From assembly GCF_003932715.1 (NCBI RefSeq), contig NZ_CP020700.1, forward strand, positions 186,001-250,000: a stretch of 64,000 nucleotides of DNA, written 5' to 3'. The DNA is from Streptomyces tsukubensis (lineage in GTDB: Bacteria; Actinomycetota; Actinomycetes; Streptomycetales; Streptomycetaceae). A model generated the notes under the pieces. It saw only the letters and a list, made by a program, of their open reading frames with translations, searched no databases and was not told where the DNA came from. Numbering within the stretch: position 1 is the first letter of the stretch; the number at the start of each line of letters is the position of its first letter. The translations under genes were made by a program, and so were the position numbers. Below are positions 51,720 through 64,000 of the stretch, in pieces.

Positions 51720-53843
51720 GTGTTGCCGTCTCCCTCGCCCCTGTCCCGGGCGAATCCCGTGAAGATCATGATCTGGGCGGCGGTCGCCGTCGTCGGCGCG
51801 ATCTGCTGGGGCGTGCTGGCGCTCTCGCGCGGTGAGGAGATCTCCGCCGTCTGGCTGGTGGCCGCCGCGCTCGGTTCGTACGCCATCGCCTACCGCTTCT
51901 ATTCGCGCTTCGTCGTCACCCGGGTGCTGAAGCCGGACGACACCCGCGCCACTCCCGCCGAGCGGCTGGAGGACGGGGTCGACTACCAGCCCACCGACAA
52001 ACGGGTGCTGCTCGGCCATCACTTCGCCGCCATCGCCGGTGCGGGCCCGCTCGTGGGTCCCGTGCTGGCCGTGCAGATGGGATATCTGCCGGGCACCATC
52101 TGGATCGTGTTCGGTGTGATCTTCGCCGGGGCGGTGCAGGACATGGTGGTGCTGTTCCTGTCGATGCGGCGGGACGGCAAGAGCCTCGGGCAGATGGCCC
52201 GTGAGGAGATCGGGCGGGTCGGCGGTACCGCGGCGCTGATCGCCGTCTTCGCCATCATGATCATCCTGCTGGCCGTGCTGGCGCTGGTCGTGGTCAATGC
52301 GCTGGCGCATTCGCCCTGGGGCACCTTCTCGGTGGCGATGACCATCCCCATCGCGCTGTTCATGGGCTTCTATCTGCACATCATGCGGCCCGGCCGGGTG
52401 CTGGAGACCAGTCTGATCGGTGTGGCGCTGCTCCTGCTGGCGATCGTGGGAGGCGGCTGGATCCAGGAGTCGTCGCTCGCCGACACCTTCACCCTCAGCC
52501 CGACGACGCTGGTGTTCTGTCTGGTCGGGTACGGGTTCGTGGCCTCGGTGCTGCCGGTGTGGATGCTGCTGGCGCCCCGGGACTACCTCTCCACCTTTAT
52601 GAAGATCGGTACGATCGCGCTGCTCGCGCTCGGGGTGGTGTTCGCGGCGCCGAAGCTCCAGGCCGACGCCGTCACTGACTTCGCGTCCTCGGGGGACGGT
52701 CCGGTCTTCGCGGGTTCGCTCTTCCCGTTCCTGTTCATCACGATCGCCTGCGGTGCGCTGTCCGGCTTCCACTCCCTGGTCTCCTCCGGCACCACGCCGA
52801 AACTGATCGCCAAGGAGTCCCAGGTCCGGATGATCGGCTACGGGGCGATGCTGATGGAGTCGTTCGTCGCCGTGATGGCGCTGATCGCCGCCGCGGTGCT
52901 CGACCCGGGCCTCTACTACGCCATGAACGCCCCGGCCGGACTGCTGGGCAACACCGTCGAATCGGCTTCCACGGCGGTGGCGAATCTGGGCTTCACCATC
53001 ACACCCGACGAACTGGCCGCGGCGGCGAAAGCGGTGGAGGAGTCCACCCTGGTCGCCCGGACCGGTGGCGCGCCGACCCTGGCCGTCGGGATGGCGCAGA
53101 TCTTCTCCGATGTCATCGGCGGCGAGGGCATGAAGGCGTTCTGGTACCACTTCGCCATCATGTTCGAGGCGCTGTTCATTCTGACGACCGTCGACGCGGG
53201 GACCCGGGTGGGCCGTTTCATGCTCCAGGACATGCTGGGCAATGTGTGGAAGCCGATGGGCCGGGTCAACTGGAAGCCCGGGATCTGGTTGGCGAGTGCG
53301 CTGGTCGTCGGCGGCTGGGGGTACTTCCTGTACGCGGGTGCCACCGATCCGCTCGGCGGGATCAACCAGCTCTTCCCGCTCTTCGGCATCGCCAACCAGC
53401 TGCTGGCGGCCGTGGCGCTGACCGTGGCGACGACACTGCTGGTGAAGTCGGGGCGGTTCCGCTGGGCGTGGGTGACCGGTGTGCCGCTCGCGTTCACCGT
53501 GGCGGTGACGTTCACCGCGAGCTGGCAGAAGGTGTTCTCGCCCGACCCCCGGGTCGGCTTCTTCGCCCAGCGGGACCGGTTCGCCGACGCCGCCGACGCG
53601 GGGAAGGTGCTGGCGCCCGCCAAGAACGCCGACGATATGGACACCATCGTGCTGAACTCCACCGTGGACGGGGTGCTGATCATCCTCTTCGTGCTGCTGG
53701 TGACGGTGGTCGTCGTCAATGCGGCCGTGGTGTGCGTCCGCGCCCTGCGCTCCCCCACCCTGCCGCCGACGACCGAGACCCCGTATGTGGCGTCGGCTCT
53801 GGAGGTCCCGGCGCCGGAGGCGAAGGCCGGGGTGCGCGAATGA
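51720..53843 (+). CDS. cstA: Carbon starvation protein CstA (peptide/pyruvate permease)
   Basis: The 707-residue permease has many transmembrane helices and CstA signatures: AYRFYSRFVVTRVLKPDD, DYQPTDKRVLLGHHFAAIAG, GAGPLVGPVLAVQMGYLPG, FGVIFAGAVQDMVVLFLSMR and the C-terminal FMLQDMLGNVWKPMG. CstA-type carriers take up peptides or pyruvate under carbon limitation. The GTG start follows GAGGAG. The stop overlaps the ybdD-like gene by ATGA. Confidence 0.95.
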   Translation: MLPSPSPLSRANPVKIMIWAAVAVVGAICWGVLALSRGEEISAVWLVAAALGSYAIAYRFYSRFVVTRVLKPDDTRATPAERLEDGVDYQPTDKRVLLGHHFAAIAGAGPLVGPVLAVQMGYLPGTIWIVFGVIFAGAVQDMVVLFLSMRRDGKSLGQMAREEIGRVGGTAALIAVFAIMIILLAVLALVVVNALAHSPWGTFSVAMTIPIALFMGFYLHIMRPGRVLETSLIGVALLLLAIVGGGWIQESSLADTFTLSPTTLVFCLVGYGFVASVLPVWMLLAPRDYLSTFMKIGTIALLALGVVFAAPKLQADAVTDFASSGDGPVFAGSLFPFLFITIACGALSGFHSLVSSGTTPKLIAKESQVRMIGYGAMLMESFVAVMALIAAAVLDPGLYYAMNAPAGLLGNTVESASTAVANLGFTITPDELAAAAKAVEESTLVARTGGAPTLAVGMAQIFSDVIGGEGMKAFWYHFAIMFEALFILTTVDAGTRVGRFMLQDMLGNVWKPMGRVNWKPGIWLASALVVGGWGYFLYAGATDPLGGINQLFPLFGIANQLLAAVALTVATTLLVKSGRFRWAWVTGVPLAFTVAVTFTASWQKVFSPDPRVGFFAQRDRFADAADAGKVLAPAKNADDMDTIVLNSTVDGVLIILFVLLVTVVVVNAAVVCVRALRSPTLPPTTETPYVASALEVPAPEAKAGVRE

Positions 53844-54108: not shown

Positions 54109-55038
54109 TCAGTCCGCCGGGGCGCTCAGCCACTGGGCCACGGCATCGGCCACCGGCTGTTCCGTCTCCAGTTCGATGAAGCCGAACTGGCCGCCCTGGT
54201 TGCACTCCAGGAACCACCACGTCCCCTCGGTGTCCTCGGCGAAGTCGAAGGCACCGTAGGCCAGGCCGGCCAGTTCCGTGTAGCGGGTGACCGCGCGCCG
54301 GACCCGGTCGGGTACCGGGACCGGCTCCCAGGTGTGCCCTGTCTCCCCGTAGCGGCCGTCCACCTGGCCCGGGGCGGCCGTCTTACGGGCGGCGAAGAGT
54401 TCCTCGCCGACACAGGTCAGCCGGACGTCGGCTTCCTTCGCGATATAGCGCTGGAGCAGGGTGGGTCCCGCCGCCACATCGGAGAAGTCGGCGTCCGGCG
54501 GTACGAGCGTGGTGGGCAGCGCCATCGGGGGGTCGTGCGGCGGCTTGCCCGACACGGCCTTGACCACGACGTGCCGGTACTGGTCCGCGAACTGCCGGGC
54601 CACCTGCGGATAGGTGGTGACGACCGTCGCGGGTACCGGAAAGCCGCTGCGGTGGGCGACGCGCAGCTGCCATGGCTTGAGCCGTGCCCTGGCGGCCGCG
54701 CCCGGCTCGTTCATCCAGCGCGCGGTGGTGCTGTGAAGCATGCCGTAGAGAGCCTGTCCGCTTTCGGCGGTCAGCCAGGCGGAGGGCTCGGGGGCACGGG
54801 CGGCGGGCTCACCGGGCCTGCGCACCCAGATGGAGCGCAGGCCGTCCATGCTGACGACCCGCCCTCCGGTGGACAGATAACCGCGGAATTCGCCCCGTAC
54901 GTACTCGGCGGAGAGCGTGCCGTCCCCCGGGAGGTCGGCGGGGTCGAACCGGACGAGGGGGACACCGCGCTTGTGGAGCTGTGCCACCACCATGTCCGCG
55001 GTCACGTCCTCCTCGCTGGTAAGGATCAGTACCGTCAT
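54109..55038 (-). CDS. tgmB: ATP-grasp graspetide (omega-ester/amide RiPP) maturase
   Basis: This 309-residue enzyme has the ATP-grasp ligase core: KPWQLRVAHRSGFPVPATVV, HVVVKAVSGKPP (ATP-binding Lys), LLQRYIAKEADVRLTCVGE and the metal/ATP-binding end FDFAEDTEGTWWFLECNQGG, GFIELE. This pattern matches the maturases paired with TgmA-type precursors, which join Asp/Glu side chains to Thr/Ser or Lys of a precursor peptide using ATP. It starts 12 nt after the precursor stop, so the two form an operon. The family often comes with a third gene, an O-methyltransferase; none is near. Confidence 0.92.
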   Translation of the reverse strand: MTVLILTSEEDVTADMVVAQLHKRGVPLVRFDPADLPGDGTLSAEYVRGEFRGYLSTGGRVVSMDGLRSIWVRRPGEPAARAPEPSAWLTAESGQALYGMLHSTTARWMNEPGAAARARLKPWQLRVAHRSGFPVPATVVTTYPQVARQFADQYRHVVVKAVSGKPPHDPPMALPTTLVPPDADFSDVAAGPTLLQRYIAKEADVRLTCVGEELFAARKTAAPGQVDGRYGETGHTWEPVPVPDRVRRAVTRYTELAGLAYGAFDFAEDTEGTWWFLECNQGGQFGFIELETEQPVADAVAQWLSAPAD

Positions 55039-55050
55039 TTCAGGGAAGCG

Positions 55051-55242
55051 TCAGTCGTCGAAGTGGGTGGCGGAGCCCGCCGTCGAAGTGGTGGTGCCGA
55101 CCGCCGCCAGCAAAGCCCGGTCCAGGATGGCGGGACGACCGTCCGGCAGGACGTTCATCTGAAGGGTGGCGTCGTACGAGTACTGATCGACGACGGGCGA
55201 CAGCTCGGCCGGACGTGCGTAGTTCCACGCGAACGGTTTCAT
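55051..55242 (-). CDS. tgmA: ATP-grasp-modified RiPP (graspetide) precursor peptide
   Basis: This small gene encodes 63 residues starting MKPFAWNYARP, with GGGAGAA well placed upstream of the ATG at 55242. The leader has the family features PFAWNYARP and QMNVLPDGRP. The C-terminal core (from about residue 49: GTTTSTAGSATHFDD) has seven Thr/Ser hydroxyls and two terminal Asp, the acceptor and donor side chains that a graspetide ligase links by esters. The THFDD end matches TIGR04186-type precursors. A much longer open frame upstream is not a gene; the ribosome binding site decides this start. It should be ring-closed by the adjacent ATP-grasp enzyme. Confidence 0.9.
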   Translation of the reverse strand: MKPFAWNYARPAELSPVVDQYSYDATLQMNVLPDGRPAILDRALLAAVGTTTSTAGSATHFDD

Positions 55243-56033
55243 GCTTTTCTCCCTGCCCCGCTCGGGACTGTTCTCGGGCCACCGCGTGGCCGCGTAAGGA
55301 GCAATACGGGGCCGTGATGTAGCCAGTTCATCACGGTCCGTCATATTGCGGATAAAGCTCGCCAGTCGACACCCGTCCGGCCCCGCGATCGCATATGCCA
55401 CGGCGAACATGACCGCACAGACGGGCCGTTGAGGTTTTCCTGACATCCAAGGAGACGCTTGAACCGGCAATTTCGTGCACTGGAAAGCGGAGTGACGTCC
55501 GTCACCATCCGACCCACCAGCAACACCTGTCACGATCACTCCGCAATTCACACACGCACCTCCGTCGTTATGAAACAGAGCGTGATGGCGCGTTTCTCTT
55601 CCGTGAGTTCTGCCCGTACCTGATGCGTTGGCCACGAAAAGGGTGGAGCGCGGATCCGTCGCCCGGCAGACGGCGCGGGTCGTCCGCGAATGGACCGCGC
55701 CCCCTCGTACCAGCGACGGTCCCGCGGCTGCGAGCTACGGTGTGCCGGTACCAGGCTCGCACACGCATAGGCATTTTTCGCGGGTGCGCACCACCGTTCG
55801 CGCAGGGATCGTCACTCTCGCGTCACACAGGGACGGCAAACAGCGCATTTCAGATACGTTCCCCGGGGCGGTGGAGAGCGCTGCCGGACAACGGGTGATG
55901 TCGGCCCCGATATCGGGGAACTTCCGGTGGGCACCGAGCGTTCCCGGCCATTTGGCGGAGTCCGGGGAAGTGCGAATGCGTACGGCGCGGGCGAAACGGG
56001 CCAACGGACGGCGCAGGAGGCGTCGTTCCGCTC
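55243..56033. other. Long intergenic region upstream of the graspetide genes
   Basis: About 790 nt lie between tgmA and the APH gene with lower GC than the surroundings. No plausible gene is seen: the open frames on both strands are His/Arg-rich and lack ribosome binding sites. It contains the tgmA promoter region, an inverted repeat at 55312-55336 and a perfect palindrome CCCCGATATCGGGG at 55915-55928 close to the 3' end of the APH gene. Confidence 0.6.
55312..55336. promoter_or_regulatory. Inverted repeat upstream of tgmA, candidate operator
   Basis: CCGTGATG-tagccagtt-CATCACGG has perfect 8-bp arms and lies 70-94 nt before the tgmA start codon, in the expected promoter zone. The regulator is not encoded nearby. 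Confidence 0.45.
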
Positions 56034-57044
56034 TCAGGGCCCCTGTGTTCCCAGGTCTTTCACGGTGTCCGTGAATCCCTGCCACGCCTCTTCCGTGTCG
56101 GGTTCGGCGGTATGCGGGGAACGGAACCGGACGAGGAAGTCGTCGAGGTCCTCCAGGCTCCAGCGCAGCCGGTAGAGGGCAAGGGCGGCGGGGTCCGGCC
56201 GTCGGCCGGCCAGTTCCTCGTACAGCCCGAGATCGGTGTCGTCCCGGGCGACCAGCCACAGATCGCGTTCGGGTACGGCGAGGCCCGCGGTGTCCCAGTC
56301 GAGCAGCAGCCTGCGGTCCCCCTGGCGCAGGAGGTTCCCGGGGTGCGGTTCGCCGTGGGTGAGTACCGGTGTCGCGGCACGGTCGCGGACTTCCGCGGCG
56401 AGCCGGTCGAAGTCGTCGAGACTCCGCCGTACCGCGGGGGCGTACTCCGCGAGCAGTGCGCGGGCGGGTTCGGAACGGGGACCGCCGTGCCACGGCTCCC
56501 CGGTGGCCCGCAGGGTCCGTTCCAGTCGGTCGCGGGCCGACAGCCCGGGCGGCAGCGTTCGCGCGGCGGCGGGCGGCGCGGACCGGTGCAGGGCGGCCAG
56601 GAGTCCCAGGGTCGCGGCCCGTTCGGCCGGGTCGGGCTCGTCGCCGAAGTCCCCGGCGGTGCCCTCCAGCCAGGGGAAGACGGCGACGGCGTGCCGGTCG
56701 CCGAGATCGCCGAGATCGCCGAGGGTCTCCCCGCGGGCGGTGCGCAGGGGGGCCACGACGAAGCCGCCGTCGGCGTGACCGAGTCCGGCGTCGGCCAGCG
56801 CGGCCGCGGTGTCCATGGCACGGCGCAGACCGTCCCGGGCTGCGGCCACCCCTATTCCGCAGTGATACTTCGCCGCGAGGTCCGAGACGGTGACGAACCA
56901 CCGCTCTCCCCCGGCGCCCTCGGCGGTCCAGTGGTGGTCCCCGAAGCCGAGGGGGACATGGCTGAGGGCGGTGGCCTCGATGTTCCAGGCCGACAGGGCC
57001 CGGCAGAGGCCGGATTCGTCGATTTCGTCGGGCCGGTGCCGCAT
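56034..57044 (-). CDS. Aminoglycoside phosphotransferase-family kinase
   Basis: The protein (336 residues) has the APH kinase core: VLTHGEPHPGNLLRQGDRRL (Brenner motif, catalytic Asp position occupied by Glu in HGEPHPGN) followed by LLLDWDTAGLAVPERDLWLV (DFG-like metal site). The N-terminal lobe contains FGDHHWTAEGAGGERWFVTV and a helix with ARDGLRRAM. Substitution of the usual HxD by HGE is common in spectinomycin phosphotransferase-like and fructosamine kinase-like relatives. Whether it gives drug resistance is unknown. It lies 39 nt downstream of the DUF1275 gene on the same strand, so they may be co-transcribed. Confidence 0.85.
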   Translation of the reverse strand: MRHRPDEIDESGLCRALSAWNIEATALSHVPLGFGDHHWTAEGAGGERWFVTVSDLAAKYHCGIGVAAARDGLRRAMDTAAALADAGLGHADGGFVVAPLRTARGETLGDLGDLGDRHAVAVFPWLEGTAGDFGDEPDPAERAATLGLLAALHRSAPPAAARTLPPGLSARDRLERTLRATGEPWHGGPRSEPARALLAEYAPAVRRSLDDFDRLAAEVRDRAATPVLTHGEPHPGNLLRQGDRRLLLDWDTAGLAVPERDLWLVARDDTDLGLYEELAGRRPDPAALALYRLRWSLEDLDDFLVRFRSPHTAEPDTEEAWQGFTDTVKDLGTQGP

Positions 57045-57083: not shown

Positions 57084-57770
57084 TTATCCGGTGCTCCGGC
57101 GCCGGGCGGCCTCGTGGACGGCGGCGCCCACGGCGACCGACCCGGCGACCACGAGCAGGAGGACGGCCGGGGAGACTCCGGCGCGCAGCAGGAGGGCGCC
57201 GATCAGCCCGCCGGTGAACATGGCGCCGACGGTGGCCAGACGACGGGCCTGGCGCCCGGCACCGGAGTCGATGCGGGTGTCGGCCCCGAGGGGGGCGAGG
57301 AGGGCGGTCAGCGAGCGGGTGGCGACCGTGGTGGTGAAGTCGGGCACCCGGGCGCGGAGCGTGGTGATGTTCCGTATCCCCATCGCGACCGCGACCAGCG
57401 CGGTGAGCCCGGGTTCCGGCCCTGCCGGATGTGCGCCGGTGCGCCAGGCGACGGCTCCGGCGGCAGCCAGCAGGGCCGCTTCGGTGAGCAGGGCGGGACC
57501 GAACCAGTGGCGGCCGCGCCGGCCGAGACCGGACTCGAAGCGGGCCCCGAGCACGGCACCCGCGACGAAGCCGCCGAGGGAGGCGGCGGAGGCCGCCGGG
57601 GAGAGTCCGCCCTCCCCGGCCACCGCGAACCCGAGAAGGAGGAGATTGCCGGTCTGGACGGCCGTGAACACGGGGCCGAGCACCAGGAAGCTCACGGCCT
57701 CGATGATCCCGGTGGTGAGGGTGAGGACGACCATGGTGGTGGTGAGGGCGGACCCGGCCGGTGGTTTCAC
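57084..57770 (-). CDS. DUF1275 (YoaK-like) membrane protein
   Basis: This 228-residue protein has about six transmembrane segments with the DUF1275 hallmark VQTGNLLLLGFAVAG after FLVLGPVFTA, and the conserved GIRNITTLRARVPDFTTTVA. The function of the family is unknown; it is thought to be a transporter. It lies downstream of the siderophore operon but behind a strong stem-loop, so it is probably transcribed separately. Confidence 0.9.
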   Translation of the reverse strand: MKPPAGSALTTTMVVLTLTTGIIEAVSFLVLGPVFTAVQTGNLLLLGFAVAGEGGLSPAASAASLGGFVAGAVLGARFESGLGRRGRHWFGPALLTEAALLAAAGAVAWRTGAHPAGPEPGLTALVAVAMGIRNITTLRARVPDFTTTVATRSLTALLAPLGADTRIDSGAGRQARRLATVGAMFTGGLIGALLLRAGVSPAVLLLVVAGSVAVGAAVHEAARRRSTG

Positions 57771-57878: not shown

Positions 57879-59198
57879 TTACGGGCGCCCGGGGACGGCG
57901 CCCGGAGACGCGCCGAGGAAGTGGAACCCGGGCCGTGGGTGCATCAGGAAGTCGTGGTGCGAGATGTTCCAGGCGTACGCGCCCGCCAGGGCGAACGCCA
58001 CCCGGTCGCCGGGCCGCAGCCCCGGGGCCGGGACGCCGCGCGCGAGGACGTCCTTGGGGGTGCAGAGCTGGCCGGTGAGGGTGACCGTGCCGCCGGACTC
58101 CGCAGCTGAGGCCGGGCGGCCGGGCGGCTCGTTGTCCGGGCGGCCGGACGCCGGGCCCTCGTGGGGATCCCCGTCCTCGGGCCGTTCGCGCAGGGGCAGG
58201 ACGGCACACGGCTGGTCGTGGCCCTTGGTGACCGGTGTGCGCAGATGGTGGGTGCCGCCGCGGAGCACGGCGAAGTGCTCGCCGTGGCTCCGCTTCACGT
58301 CGAGTACTTCGGTGGCGTACCAGCCGCAGTAGGCGGTCAGGGCCCGGCCGGGTTCGATCCGGAGCACGGTCCCCGGGTGTTCCCCGGCGAGCCGGTCGAG
58401 TCCGGCGCCGAGGGCAGTCCAGTCGAAGCGGTCCGCGGGCCGGGTGTAGTCGACGGTCATCCCGCCGCCGACGTTGACTTCGGGCAGCGGCAGGCCGTGG
58501 CGGGCGGCGAGCGCCGCGGACCAGGTGACGACGGAGCGGGCGAGCGCCAGATGCTGCGGGGCGGTGAGCCCGCTGGCGAGATGGGCGTGGACGCCCTGCC
58601 ACCGCAGGGCCGGGCCGCATGCTCCGGTGAGTTCCCGCAGCAGGTCCTCCGCCTCGGCCGGGTCGATGCCGAAGGGGGACGGGCTGCCGCCCATGGTCAG
58701 GGCGCTGTCGGCGGGCAGTCCGCCGGGTACCGGGAGGTTGACCCTGAGGAGCACACCGGCGGGGGGCCTGCCGCCGCTTCCGGCCCCGGCCTCCCGGGCG
58801 AGACGGGCGAGCTGCCTCAGGTCGCGGGCGCTCTCGACGTGGAAGCGGGCGACTCCGGCCCGCAGGGCGGCCGAGGTCTCCTCGGGTGTTTTTCCGGGCC
58901 CGCCGAACGCGAGGGGGCGGCCGGGTACCGCGTCGGCCACATGGGCCAGCTCGCCGCCGGAGGAGACCTCGTAGCCGTCGACGTACGGGGACAGGGCGCG
59001 CAGGACGTCGGCTTCCGGGTTGGCCTTGGCCGCGTAGTACAGCTCGGTGCGGGGGCCGAGGGCGGCGCGGATGCCGGCCGCGTGGTCGCGCAGGGCGGCG
59101 AGGTCGTAGACGTACGCGGGAAGCTCGCCCGGGTTCAGGGAGCGGATGAGCCGTTCGACGGGTTCGGGGACCGTGACCGGGGTGGGTCCGGGGGTCAT
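57879..59198 (-). CDS. PLP-dependent decarboxylase, siderophore type (PvsE/SbnH-like)
   Basis: This 439-residue protein is a fold-type III (alanine racemase-like) amino acid decarboxylase related to diaminopimelate decarboxylase. The PLP Lys lies in YYAAKANPEADVLRAL (Lys58); GGGMTVDY binds the phosphate, and LTGQLCTPKDVLARG with AYAWNISHHDFLMHPRP are active-site regions of the siderophore branch. In vibrioferrin and staphyloferrin B pathways, the homologue removes CO2 from a citryl-amino acid intermediate. A Gly/Pro/Glu insertion of about 30 residues (near 58090-58180) is unusual. It is coupled to the upstream synthetase by ATGA. Confidence 0.9.
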   Translation of the reverse strand: MTPGPTPVTVPEPVERLIRSLNPGELPAYVYDLAALRDHAAGIRAALGPRTELYYAAKANPEADVLRALSPYVDGYEVSSGGELAHVADAVPGRPLAFGGPGKTPEETSAALRAGVARFHVESARDLRQLARLAREAGAGSGGRPPAGVLLRVNLPVPGGLPADSALTMGGSPSPFGIDPAEAEDLLRELTGACGPALRWQGVHAHLASGLTAPQHLALARSVVTWSAALAARHGLPLPEVNVGGGMTVDYTRPADRFDWTALGAGLDRLAGEHPGTVLRIEPGRALTAYCGWYATEVLDVKRSHGEHFAVLRGGTHHLRTPVTKGHDQPCAVLPLRERPEDGDPHEGPASGRPDNEPPGRPASAAESGGTVTLTGQLCTPKDVLARGVPAPGLRPGDRVAFALAGAYAWNISHHDFLMHPRPGFHFLGASPGAVPGRP

Positions 59199-60961
59199 GA
59201 GGGGCTCCGTTCGGCGTCGTTGCGGGTCGCCTGGCGCAGGACGTCCTCGGCGAGCGGGGAGGGCAGCCGGACGTATCCGGCGTGCCGATCGGCGGACCTC
59301 TCCCAGCGGGTGAGGAGGTTGGCCTTCGCGGGCAGGGGCACGCCCGCGAGCAGGGCGCTCAGCTGCGGCGGGCAGCCGTGTTCGTCGGCGTACCGGCGGA
59401 CGGTGCGGCGGACCTCGGACCAGAGCGCGGCCTCGGTCTGCGGATGGAGGTCCGCGAGGGCGGCGAGGAGTTCCGCGACATGGTTGACGAACAGGCAGTA
59501 CACGACACGGTCCCAGCCGCGCCGGGCGTCGTAGGTCATGGGCGCGGCGACCGCGGGGGGCAGGGCGGCGAGGGCCGCGGCGTGGTGTTCCGGCAGCAGT
59601 TTGGTGCCCTCCAGGTCGCGGAAGAGGATCTGGACCGGGCGGCCGTCGTCGCCGACGCCGACGACGACGTTCTGGAGGTGGGGTTCGAGTACCAGTCCGT
59701 GGTCGAAGTAGGCGGCCAGGACGGGCGGGACGAGGAGGGCGAGGTAAGCGCGCCACCAGGCGAGGGCGGTGGCCGGGTTCCCGGCGGGCCCGAGGGCGGA
59801 GACGTGTCCGGGGCCGGTGGGGTACTCGTCGGCGACGGAGGCGGCCAGCAGCGGGGTGACGCCGGGCCTCAGCCGTTCCCTCAGTCCCTCGCGGACGATG
59901 ACGCCGAAGCCTTCGAGCAGGGTGGTGTCGGGCCGTCCGCCGGGGCCGGGGACGGCAAGGCTGCGGTAGGCGGGTTCCCGCAGGACGCCGCTGCCGGGGA
60001 AGCGGGCCGCGAGGTCGTCGAGGGCGGGGCCGAGCAGCCTGGTCAGGGCGACGGCGCCGGAGAGTTCGTACGCGGAGTTCTTGCGCAGGCAGTTGGTGAT
60101 GCGCACGTTCAGGCTGAACTTGAGGAACGTCTCGCCGTCGTAGAGGGTGCGGACGGACGCCGTGGGGGTGAAGGTCCGCCGTCCGGTGCCGAGGTCGAGG
60201 ACGTCTCCGGTGGCGAGCAGCGGGCGCAGCGCGGGGCCGAGTTCGGCGTACTGCCAGGGGTGTGCGGGCAGCAGCCGGTATCCGGGCGGTACGGGGGCGA
60301 GCCGGTCGAGCGGTCCGGTGCCGTGCGGGGGTTCCGGGTCGGCGTGCTCCTCGGCGACGAGGTGGTCGCGGACGGCGAGCATGCGCAGGGGGAAGGAGAC
60401 TCCGGCGTCGGGGGCGTAGCTGGACCAGGCGGCGGGGTCGCCGCCATGGGCCTTGGGGGTGGGGTGGAAGCGGTGGCCGAGGACGAGGGACTGTTCGGAG
60501 GCGAGGTAGTCGTCGAGTCTGCGGTCGTGGCCCGCGGTGGCGCGGCGGCGGTGCGGGAGGGCGCTCAGGGCGGCGGAGACGCCTCGGTGGCTGGCGCTGA
60601 TCTGGGCGAGGAACTCGTCGTTGGGCACTCCGGTGCGCAGGGACAGTTCGGCGTGGGTGTGTTCGGCGAGGCGCCGCCAGCCCACGGCGGTCCAGTTGCC
60701 GTCGCGCTCTTCGCTGACCGGTCCGGAGAAGCGGTGTGCGCCGAGGAGGGATGTACGGCGCAGGGCGACGCGGAGCAGTACTCCGGCGCGGGGCAGGCGC
60801 AGCAGCAGTCGTCCGCCGCTGACTGCGGTCTGCCGTTCGGGTTCTGAGACCTCGCGCAGGAGGCAGTTGAGGAGCGTGTGGGACACGGCGTCCCCGGGGG
60901 TGGGCAGTCCGGCCGGTGGGCCGGCGAAGGGGGTGGGGCGGTCGGATGTGGTGCTGGTCAT
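59195..60961 (-). CDS. IucA/IucC-family NIS siderophore synthetase
   Basis: The 588-residue synthetase has the family motifs in order: SLVLGHRFHPTPKAHGG (nucleotide binding), KFSLNVRITNCLRKNSAYEL, VPPVLAAYFDHGLVLEPHLQ and ILFRDLEGTKLL. NIS synthetases adenylate a carboxylate (citrate or a citryl intermediate) and condense it with an amine or alcohol. It is flanked by ATGA overlaps on both sides. By position it corresponds to the PvsD-type enzyme next to the decarboxylase. Confidence 0.92.
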   Translation of the reverse strand: MTSTTSDRPTPFAGPPAGLPTPGDAVSHTLLNCLLREVSEPERQTAVSGGRLLLRLPRAGVLLRVALRRTSLLGAHRFSGPVSEERDGNWTAVGWRRLAEHTHAELSLRTGVPNDEFLAQISASHRGVSAALSALPHRRRATAGHDRRLDDYLASEQSLVLGHRFHPTPKAHGGDPAAWSSYAPDAGVSFPLRMLAVRDHLVAEEHADPEPPHGTGPLDRLAPVPPGYRLLPAHPWQYAELGPALRPLLATGDVLDLGTGRRTFTPTASVRTLYDGETFLKFSLNVRITNCLRKNSAYELSGAVALTRLLGPALDDLAARFPGSGVLREPAYRSLAVPGPGGRPDTTLLEGFGVIVREGLRERLRPGVTPLLAASVADEYPTGPGHVSALGPAGNPATALAWWRAYLALLVPPVLAAYFDHGLVLEPHLQNVVVGVGDDGRPVQILFRDLEGTKLLPEHHAAALAALPPAVAAPMTYDARRGWDRVVYCLFVNHVAELLAALADLHPQTEAALWSEVRRTVRRYADEHGCPPQLSALLAGVPLPAKANLLTRWERSADRHAGYVRLPSPLAEDVLRQATRNDAERSPS

Positions 60962-62739
60962 CGAGGGTCACTCCCCCGCAGCAGGTAGTTGGGTCCGGTG
61001 GTGTAGTGCTTGTTGATGTCCAATGCGCCTGATCTCTCCTTGGCCAGCAGGGTGCCCGCCGTGACCATGGCCTTGACGGGCAGTCGGGCCGCGTCCAGTA
61101 CCTGGGCGCGCAGCAGCGCGCCCATGTCTCCGGGTCCGGTGCCGAGGCGTTGTGCGCCTTCGGCTATCCGGTCGCGTATCAGCCCGAGCAGGAGGTGGAG
61201 GGGGGCGTGGCCGTGGCGGGCGAGGCCGAAGGCGTAGGCGCCCGCGCAGAGGTGGACGGTGATGGTGGTGAACAGGTCGAGCAGGGCGCGGTCGTCGTGG
61301 GTGACGATGCGGGGGTCGCTGAAGTCGAGTGCGGGTGTTTCGCCGAGGGCTGCGCGCAGCCGGGCGGGGTGGATACGGGGGCCGTCGTTGTCTTTGAGGA
61401 GGAGGCGGGGTCCCGGGGTGCCGTCGCCGGTGCCGTGGTCGGTGCCGGTGCCGGTGCCGGTGCCGGCGTCGTAGAGAAGGGTGATGTTCTGCTGGTGGGA
61501 TTCGAGGGCGATGCCGTAGCCCAGCAGGGTGGTCGCCCAGTCGATGAGGCGGGTGAGGACGGCGTCGACGAGGGCGACGGTGTCGCCGCCGTGGAAGCGG
61601 TCCGCGAGCCGGTCGGCGACGAGGCCGCCGCCGGGGGCGGGGGCGAGCAGGGCGGCCAGCGGAACGGCGGTGGTGGTGTCGAGTCCGGGGGGCTGGCGGC
61701 GGACGAGGACGGCGAGGAGTTCGTGGCCGGCCTGGGCCCAGACGGTTTCGTCGGCGTGCAGGACGGTGGAGCGGAAGCGGGGTTCGCGGGCGGCCACGGC
61801 GGTCAGGATGTGCTGGACGGCGGCGCCGTCCGCGAGGGTGCCCGGTTTGATGGTGCGCCGGTTGAGGCGGCCGAGAGTGGCGGTGGCCAGGGGGATTTTG
61901 AGGTGGACGGCGGGGTCGCCGGTGAGGGCGACGGTCCGCATGGACAGGGTGGGGACGACCTCGTGGCGGGGTTCGGGGGCGAGATGGGCGCGGCCGGTGA
62001 GTCCGGCGGCGGCCAGAGCGTCGCGCAGGGGGGTGCCCGCGGTGAGGGGGTGGACGGGGAGGGTGCGGTGGCTGCCGTCGAGCCGGGCGGGGAGGCCCAC
62101 TGCGGACGGCGCGGGGCAGAGTCCGTCGAGGTCAAGGGGGCCGGTCGCGGTGAGGGCTTCGGCGGGTACGGCAACCCAGCGCAGGGGGAATGCGGGGTGG
62201 AATTCGGGTGCGTAGGCCCGGAGATCGGCGGCCGTGAGGCCGCGCCGTCCCCGTCCGGTGGGGTGGACGGGGTGGTCGAGCCTGGCGGCAAGGGTGTCGA
62301 AGGCCAGCGCGGCGGCCGGTCCCGTCCAGTGGGCGGGGTCGGTGCCGTAACGCTCGCTGAGGCGGCCGCGTACGGCGGTGTCGGTGGCGCGGTGGAGCCG
62401 TACGGTGGTCTCCGCCTGCCGGCATTCGTCCTCGAAGTCGGCGTAGCCGGGCCGGTCGCGGGGGTCGGCGAGGGCGCCGAGGGCGCGCAGTACGGCTTCG
62501 GTGGTGGTCAGTTCGGTGCCGTCGGACTCGCGGCGCAGCAGCGGGAGCCGGGCCTCGGTGCCGTACTGGAACGCGGGGGCCGCGGTGCGTACGGGCAGCA
62601 GCAGGGCGTCGTCGTGTGCGGGGAGCCGTAGCCAGGCGCCGTCGGGCAGGTCGACGCGGGTGGTGCGGCTCCGCAGTCCGACGGCGTCCTCGCGCAGGAG
62701 GGTGCTGAGGACGTCGAGGAGTACGGGGGCGTCCGTCAC
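60958..62739 (-). CDS. Second IucA/IucC-family NIS siderophore synthetase
   Basis: This protein of 593 residues is divergent from its neighbour but has the same fold: LDHPVHPTGRGRRGLTAADL, VHLKIPLATATLGRLNRRTI, TTLLGYGIALESHQQNITLL and LLLKDNDGPRIHP. A Gly-Thr repeat (near residues 440-455) lies between ESHQQN and the LLLKDN segment and looks like a slippage insert. Two different NIS synthetases in one operon mean two separate condensations. By position this is PvsB-like. It overlaps both neighbours by 4 nt. Confidence 0.92.
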   Translation of the reverse strand: MTDAPVLLDVLSTLLREDAVGLRSRTTRVDLPDGAWLRLPAHDDALLLPVRTAAPAFQYGTEARLPLLRRESDGTELTTTEAVLRALGALADPRDRPGYADFEDECRQAETTVRLHRATDTAVRGRLSERYGTDPAHWTGPAAALAFDTLAARLDHPVHPTGRGRRGLTAADLRAYAPEFHPAFPLRWVAVPAEALTATGPLDLDGLCPAPSAVGLPARLDGSHRTLPVHPLTAGTPLRDALAAAGLTGRAHLAPEPRHEVVPTLSMRTVALTGDPAVHLKIPLATATLGRLNRRTIKPGTLADGAAVQHILTAVAAREPRFRSTVLHADETVWAQAGHELLAVLVRRQPPGLDTTTAVPLAALLAPAPGGGLVADRLADRFHGGDTVALVDAVLTRLIDWATTLLGYGIALESHQQNITLLYDAGTGTGTGTDHGTGDGTPGPRLLLKDNDGPRIHPARLRAALGETPALDFSDPRIVTHDDRALLDLFTTITVHLCAGAYAFGLARHGHAPLHLLLGLIRDRIAEGAQRLGTGPGDMGALLRAQVLDAARLPVKAMVTAGTLLAKERSGALDINKHYTTGPNYLLRGSDPR

Positions 62740-64000
62740 GGGGTGATCTCCCAGCTCTGCCGGGCGAGGAAGCCGGTCACGGCCCGGTCCACGGCGGACT
62801 GGTCGGGTCCGGTGGCGCGGACGGTGCCCAGATAGTCGCGGTTGGTGCGGTACAGCGGATGCCGTTCTCCGACGGCGCGGGCCGGACGGTAGGTCAGGGT
62901 GACGTCGCCGAGGGTCAGATCGGCCGGTCCGGGGGCGGCGGTGAGGGTGCCCGCGCGGTCGGCGACGGGGTAGTCCAGCCGGGCGGCACCGCCGGTGCGG
63001 GCGCCGAGGTCGGCGGGGAGGCGCCGGCCGAGGTGGACCAGGAGGACATGGGCGAAGAGCGGGATGCCGAGGAGGCGCTGGAGGATCAGATCGCCCTGGT
63101 CCCCGATGGAGCGGTAGTTGACCTCGATGATCCGGGCGCGGCCGTGGTGGACCACGAATTCGGTGTGGCAGACGCCGAAGCCGACGCCGAGGGTGTCGAG
63201 GGCGGCCAGGACCTGGGCGACGACGGGGGCGGGGTGGGCGGGGACGTAGGTCAGCCGTTCTTCGATGAAGTAGGGCAGTGGTGACAGGTCGGTGCGGAAG
63301 CCGCCGATGACATGGAGGCGGTGTCCGTCGCCGAGGGTCTCCAGGGTGCCGAGTTCGCCGGGGAGGTACTCCTCGGCGACGAGGGCGGCGCCGGGGCGCC
63401 GGGCCCTGATCTCGGCGCAGCGGCGGAGGAACGCGGCTTCGTCGTCGATATGGACGACGTCCTCGCTGGCGACGCCTTCGCGGGGTTTGAGTACGCAGGG
63501 GTAGGGGACGCCGGTGAGGGCGGCCGGGTCCTGGTCCGCCGCCAGTTCCACGCTGTGGACGCGGTGGTCGCCGGTGGCCGCGAGGGCACGGCGCATCTGG
63601 GCCTTGTCCTTGGCGCGGAGGGTGGCGCGCCAGTCCTTGGCGGGCAGGCCGAAGTAGTCGGCGGCGAGAGCGGTCACGGTCTGGAGGTGATCGCTGTTGC
63701 TGAAGACCGCGTCGGGGGCGCGGTGCGCGGAGATGGTGCTGATGACCGCGTGGTGGTCGCGGACGTCGCAGTGCAGGACGGTGAGGCCGGGGTGGCGGGC
63801 GCGGTGGGCTTCGGGCTGGTCGGTGAGGAGGGTGATGTCGAGCCCGAGCTGTGCGGCGGCGGGCAGATAGCCCTCGGACACCGCGTCGGTGGGGTTGAGG
63901 GCGAGGAGGTAGAGGTGGAGCCCTGAAACGGGGCCGGAGTCCGGGCCGGGCTCCGGGCCGGAGTCGGGTCCTGGCAGGGGGGCCGGGGCGTCGGACGGGG
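62736..64000 (-). CDS. ATP-grasp amino-acid ligase of the siderophore operon, 5' end outside the window
   Basis: The visible 420 or so residues form an ATP-grasp enzyme: LTVLHCDVRDHHAVISTIS (N-terminal domain), FGLPAKDWRATLRAKDKAQM, GVPYPCVLKPREGVASEDVV (ATP-binding Lys and glycine loop), AALVAEEYLPGEL and the metal site ARIIEVNYRSIGDQGDLI. A start near 63881 would cut off the conserved first strand GLHLYLLALNPTDAV, and the frame stays open to the window end, so the gene is partial. In vibrioferrin biosynthesis, the first gene (pvsA) is an ATP-grasp ligase. It is coupled to the next gene by ATGA. Confidence 0.88.
   Translation of the reverse strand, partial: PSDAPAPLPGPDSGPEPGPDSGPVSGLHLYLLALNPTDAVSEGYLPAAAQLGLDITLLTDQPEAHRARHPGLTVLHCDVRDHHAVISTISAHRAPDAVFSNSDHLQTVTALAADYFGLPAKDWRATLRAKDKAQMRRALAATGDHRVHSVELAADQDPAALTGVPYPCVLKPREGVASEDVVHIDDEAAFLRRCAEIRARRPGAALVAEEYLPGELGTLETLGDGHRLHVIGGFRTDLSPLPYFIEERLTYVPAHPAPVVAQVLAALDTLGVGFGVCHTEFVVHHGRARIIEVNYRSIGDQGDLILQRLLGIPLFAHVLLVHLGRRLPADLGARTGGAARLDYPVADRAGTLTAAPGPADLTLGDVTLTYRPARAVGERHPLYRTNRDYLGTVRATGPDQSAVDRAVTGFLARQSWEITP

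Follow-up and report, generated by a model that had tools for sequence, protein, structure and literature searches.

The window analysed here is a stretch of 64,000 nucleotides of the Streptomyces tsukubensis genome (C1:186001-250000 of 8.0 Mb), and the 10 kb to its right were also read (locus L006, whose positions convert to window positions by adding 54999). At the right-hand end lies a minus-strand operon of four genes, arranged head to tail with intact reading frames, which encode in order an ATP-grasp ligase, two NRPS-independent siderophore (NIS) synthetases, referred to as NIS-B and NIS-D, and a PLP-dependent decarboxylase (Table 1). The frames and domains confirmed the gene order given in an earlier note on this DNA, that of pvsA, pvsB, pvsD and pvsE, and the 4-nt overlaps it had claimed were found at all three junctions (GTGA, ATGA and ATGA). 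The ATP-grasp frame runs from L006 7737 up to 9320 (window 64319), with position 64000 being the window edge only and the true start uncertain. The place of pvsC between the two NIS genes is taken by one of the overlaps, with no MFS gene; PvsC is predicted to act in transport and is not one of the biosynthetic enzymes. Behind the operon, 108 bp on and on the same strand, is a DUF1275 gene, followed by one of the APH family. Upstream, a divergent gene encodes an FhuF-type protein with an FhuF 2Fe-2S C-terminal domain (FhuF_C), beyond which lies a CPA2 antiporter gene. Elsewhere in the window, a graspetide pair scored above cut-off for its maturase (TIGR04187, 386 bits, cut-off 350) and its precursor (TIGR04186, 52 bits, cut-off 25), and the APH-family protein scored 290 bits with NCBIfam APH(9)-Ib, under the cut-off of 675.

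Table 1. Features of the operon and its surroundings. Positions refer to the window unless marked L006 or L008.
Feature	Position	Strand	Basis
Large membrane protein frame, CstA carbon-starvation transporter-like, with a small YbdD-like frame after it	51720-53843	plus	By eye
Graspetide pair: ATP-grasp ribosomal peptide maturase and putative ATP-grasp-modified RiPP precursor	54109-55038 and 55051-55635	minus	TIGR04187, TIGR04186
APH-family phosphotransferase	56034-57044	minus	APH(9)-Ib
DUF1275 gene	57084-57770	minus	
PLP-dependent decarboxylase, PvsE/AcsE/SbnH-like, 439 aa	57879-59198	minus	PF02784, PF00278
NIS-D, NIS synthetase, PvsD/AcsD-like, 588 aa	59195-60961	minus	PF04183, AcsD 2w02, tree
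NIS-B, NIS synthetase, PvsB-like, 593 aa	60958-62739	minus	PF04183, PvsB-position clade
ATP-grasp amino-acid ligase, PvsA-like	62736 to past 64000	minus	PvsA-position grouping, PRK02186
Iron-box-like site, TTAGGTTAGGCATCCCTAA	L006 9331		
Iron-box-like site, AAGGTGAGCCTTACC	L006 9406		
FhuF-type protein	L006 9579-10439	divergent	FhuF_C
DUF2470 protein gene	L006 13502-14265		
Further NIS pair	L008 8695-12374 (C1 about 4188694-4192373)		Tree

Reference proteins were assigned to Pvs and Acs positions by gene order in plasmid records, among which only the Pantoea ATP-grasp is named PvsA; the Vibrio references are plasmid clusters placed in this way and are other than the proven V. parahaemolyticus operon. 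The ATP-grasp joined the PvsA-position proteins with support of 100/100 against four other ATP-grasps, in a tree flagged for long outgroup branches; its identity to the Vibrio plasmid-cluster counterpart is low, at about 36%. Its family-model matches lay under the respective cut-offs (Pfam PF13535, 25.7 bits, cut-off 27; NCBIfam PRK02186, 136 bits, cut-off 625). NIS-B (PF04183, 112 bits) clustered with six PvsB-position proteins at 100/100 in a 29-row NIS tree, and the approximately unbiased (AU) test rejected its placement with the AcsA position (p 7e-5, with groups named after the tree had been seen). Staphyloferrin B enzymes, which had no sequences in this tree, were represented by NCBIfam models. 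SbnC was the best NCBIfam model for the PvsB-position proteins and for the AcsA-position protein, all under the cut-off of 700: 61 bits for NIS-B, 119 and 75 bits for the Vibrio and Rhodococcus PvsB-position proteins, and a strong 355 bits for the Sodalis AcsA-position protein. Among solved structures NIS-B matched weakly to 7cbb (44 bits), which we take to be SbnC. Because NIS-B appears to be a distant relative of SbnC and AcsA, and SbnC is described in the available text as using 2-oxoglutarate (PMC3179956), 2-oxoglutarate may be its substrate as well.

NIS-D (PF04183, 147 bits) fell with support of 99/98 in a joint clade of PvsD- and AcsD-position proteins, within which neither grouping was rejected (AU p 0.17 and 0.26); holding it with RhbC gave a marginal p of 0.04, that group having been named after the tree was seen. 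The best solved match was AcsD (2w02, 240 bits), to which the main conserved blocks align gap-free, and NIS-D appears to be a type A, citrate-using synthetase. It does not by itself fix the pathway, because one close relative in the tree comes from a cluster on a Streptomyces plasmid that has two NIS genes and in which neither an ATP-grasp nor a decarboxylase is annotated. For the decarboxylase, the best solved match was 6knh (250 bits, residues 26-429), presumably SbnH. Its identity to PvsE-position proteins ranges from 38 to 53% (53% Rhodococcus, 45% Pantoea, a low 39% Vibrio), which overlaps the 41% found for the Sodalis AcsE-position protein, so that in sequence it is about equally like both. 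The phylogenetic comparison proposed in the earlier note was thus borne out for the ATP-grasp and NIS-B, which go with PvsA and PvsB, while NIS-D and the decarboxylase were indistinguishable from achromobactin-type relatives; neither NIS enzyme grouped with those of the rhizobactin (schizokinen-like) system, and NIS-B stood apart from AcsA. The label of a vibrioferrin-type operon is supported at the enzyme level, for PvsA/B/D/E-type enzymes in pvs order.

The A-B-D-E order was found again in 59 of 60 same-genus stretches fetched, in some of which an MFS gene separates B from D; the remaining one, L113, shows only A and B. The order A, B, MFS, D, E occurs in plasmid records of named Rhodococcus, Cupriavidus, Vibrio (two), Piscirickettsia and Pantoea. 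This recurrence in the genus and in the plasmid records argues that the gene order is not due to chance. An ATP-grasp relative (E 1e-60 or better) was present in 70 of 295 sampled same-genus genomes, or about a quarter of the species sampled, with the genome of the window included. These 70 comprise the window's own, 59 fetched with flanks (giving the 60 stretches, two of them from one genome) and 10 that were not fetched. The 60 stretches and seven other loci, 67 in all, were scanned with twelve probe proteins. All four enzymes were present in 63 actinomycete loci, of which 27 have a PvsC-like MFS gene and 36, here called compact, lack it; at least three of four ABC uptake genes were found in 25/63. 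Full clusters usually run in the order ABC uptake genes, A, B, MFS, D, E.

Such an operon had been thought unusual in Streptomyces, a claim contradicted both by these counts and by the avs cluster of S. avermitilis, already in print (PMC9394381); carboxylate siderophore genes should accordingly not be regarded as unusual in this genus. The operon belongs to a kind already named in Streptomyces. As far as the available text of that report goes, avsABCD (SAV_7320-7323) is presented as a cluster for a vibrioferrin-like siderophore of the polyhydroxycarboxylate class, and its transcription is raised in a pteF mutant (PMC9394381). Like the operon described here it has four genes, three for siderophore synthetase components and one for a "diaminopimelate decarboxylase" (PMC9394381), a likeness at the level of annotation. 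Vibrio pvsABCDE shares the order ATP-grasp, NIS, NIS, decarboxylase and the PvsA- and PvsB-position clades; the window operon differs in having no pvsC between the NIS genes, no receptor and no ABC uptake genes, and in its divergent FhuF-type gene. The pRB29 cluster of Rhodococcus oxybenzonivorans (L010) encodes a relative of each of the four enzymes, with 46-53% identity, and differs in carrying ABC uptake genes, an aldolase/citrate lyase gene and, where pvsC would be, an MFS gene. Next to that cluster (L010 4744-17057) are genes for mercury resistance and for a Tn3-family transposase.

A look for an iron box, as the earlier note had advised, yielded two iron-box-like sites upstream of the operon, in the intergenic region between the ATP-grasp and FhuF-type genes and just outside the window (Table 1). 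A scan of the 8.0 Mb genome with a DmdR/IdeR consensus, allowing at most 3 mismatches, gave 13 matches at 11 places, against 0 for the reversed control. The site at L006 9331 is one of the 13; another, at C1:2623222, belongs to a locus that was judged by eye to be of the desferrioxamine type, and another, at C1:4188603, lies next to a further NIS pair. Of 64 related loci, 61 have a site upstream of the cluster that outscored each of 30 shuffles, and none was found in the examined stretches of the other three (L070, L109 and L113). The FhuF-type gene was present in 45/63 related actinomycete loci. The operon is probably iron-controlled, via DmdR/IdeR as judged from the iron-box-like sites. An iron-box-like site, TTAGGTTAGGCAAACCTAA, also precedes the likely start of the DUF2470 protein gene to the right of the window; relatives of this gene flank 7 of the 36 compact clusters, this one included, and in L090 and L100 they lie less than 60 bp behind the decarboxylase match. 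The further NIS pair, whose iron-box-like site (C1:4188603-4188621) lies some 70 bp upstream, groups in the tree with RhbF/DesD and RhbC; it may correspond to the unassigned rhizobactin-like cluster that, in the part of the source available, is described from all eight Streptomyces studied (PMC3848822).

The exporter and uptake genes that had been expected to the right did not appear: none was recognised within 10 kb of the window, the MFS and ABC probes matched nothing in L006, and genome-wide searches revealed no orthologue of the PvsC-like MFS protein (best MFS match E 3e-6) or of the cluster binding protein (best binding protein 38% identical). A match to the cluster MFS protein (E 1e-15) was absent from 33/33 compact genomes, in many of which the best 57 MFS candidates were scored, and a binding protein of more than 50% identity (E 1e-30) was likewise absent from 33/33, the window's genome included. 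Three of the 36 compact loci (L009, L018 and L020) are plasmid records, whose genomes fall outside this search. Four of four full genomes gave both proteins, at 78% identity or more, and on these results a relocated exporter or binding protein was rejected for the compact genomes searched. Binding proteins found in MFS-bearing Streptomyces clusters were 70-83% identical to the query, with one at 44%. The DUF1275 gene was considered as a substitute exporter and set aside: among the 67 loci it adjoins the cluster only in L006 and L055 (the L055 product, also encoded behind the cluster, is 63% identical to that of L006), and it was not found in the stretch of close kin L059. Nor was a recurrent alternative transporter recognised among the recurrent flanking ORF families of the 36 compact loci, families that were judged by eye from ORFs filtered by codon-position G+C, so that some genes may be missed.

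In a quick four-gene tree of the 63 loci (LG+G4, with long outgroup branches), which left out L113 as well as L019, whose stretch yielded no ATP-grasp, the nearest kin of the window locus were L055 and L059, both compact. Exporter state changed at least 12 times on this tree, compared with 15 to 25 times (mean 20.5) in 100 label shuffles. A minimum of 12 fits gain or loss alike; loss is suggested as the direction because the MFS gene occupies the same place in Rhodococcus and proteobacterial clusters. It is a tentative idea, and one we rather doubt, that compact clusters form a distinct functional state, in which the pvsC exporter and its matched binding protein were lost genome-wide in several Streptomyces lineages and the enzymes, iron boxes and often the reductase were kept. 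If so, the product would leave and return via unrelated transporters, or stay cell-bound, or its structure may differ. The recurrent lack of transporters is the only mildly surprising part of these results, and poses the question of how a siderophore made by an operon with no exporter gene leaves the cell and is taken up again.

The best explanation, to which we give a probability of roughly 0.8, is a vibrioferrin-type NIS operon in the compact actinomycete form, of the avsABCD kind and probably iron-repressed, with vibrioferrin or a close analogue as predicted product. Its four genes in A-B-D-E order, iron box and lack of an exporter fit the features of compact actinomycete avs-type operons. 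Another citrate siderophore, of the type of achromobactin or of staphyloferrin B, or else a novel analogue in which a different amino acid replaces alanine or serine, is unlikely, yet it is the alternative to be taken most seriously. Those two systems share with the window operon an AcsD-type NIS enzyme, an SbnH/AcsE-type decarboxylase and an SbnC/AcsA-related NIS enzyme, the achromobactin type being represented by the Sodalis pSG1 cluster (L016), which we take to be such from its gene order. The joint clade of NIS-D with AcsD-position enzymes, in which the AU test rejected neither grouping, and the even likeness of the decarboxylase to PvsE- and AcsE-position proteins speak for this alternative. 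The Sodalis cluster, however, has three NIS enzymes and a diaminobutyrate aminotransferase and no annotated ATP-grasp, whereas the window operon has two NIS enzymes only and an ATP-grasp, and a scan of ten neighbourhood proteins revealed no gene for the supply of diaminopropionate or diaminobutyrate. The exclusion of NIS-B from the AcsA position also argues against it.

A hydroxamate pathway of the schizokinen/rhizobactin or desferrioxamine type shares the NIS domain, and three other NIS genes of such type lie elsewhere in the genome; with NIS-B and NIS-D outside the RhbF/DesD and RhbC clades, and no monooxygenase, acyltransferase or other hydroxamate-forming gene among the neighbourhood proteins scanned, we consider this reading highly implausible. 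It is improbable, too, that the operon is a decaying remnant, with exporter and uptake genes lost and biosynthetic genes no longer serving iron acquisition. Orthologues of the PvsC-like exporter and the binding protein were indeed found neither here nor in the 32 other compact genomes searched, but the four frames are intact and tightly coupled, iron-box-like sites and an FhuF-type gene are retained, and the compact form occurs in many species.

For a vibrioferrin-type operon, the families of the four enzymes suggest the following route. The D enzyme would couple L-serine to citrate; AcsD-type enzymes join citrate and serine. The decarboxylase would convert the seryl part to ethanolamine, the ATP-grasp would ligate L-alanine, and the B enzyme would attach 2-oxoglutarate to give vibrioferrin or a close hydroxycarboxylate analogue; the choice of amino acids is not readable from the sequence. 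SbnH is described, in the available part of the source, as decarboxylating citrate-bound Dap (PMC3179956). A published proposal makes vibrioferrin from ethanolamine, alanine, 2-oxoglutarate and citrate, with enzyme functions untested there as far as its available text goes (PMC5577590); the route suggested here, being modelled on relatives, would differ from it in step order. Iron-bound DmdR/IdeR would silence the divergent promoter region, as the sites suggest, and the FhuF-type protein may reduce the returning ferric complex. Export and uptake would depend on transporters whose genes lie elsewhere and which are orthologous neither to PvsC nor to its partner binding protein.

Among the matches listed, open-licence titles and abstract openings held no report of vibrioferrin isolated from a Streptomyces. 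In the excerpts available of other reports, a siderophore region in the genome of Streptomyces tunisialbus is matched to vibrioferrin at 18% (PMC7385001), and the GQFP genome paper cites a vibrioferrin gene paper (PMC9022529). A survey of nine soils gave a tentative identification of vibrioferrin in one of them, and its available text mentions Azotobacter as an organism known to produce it (PMC7527475); Streptomyces would be a further possible source if they also make the compound.
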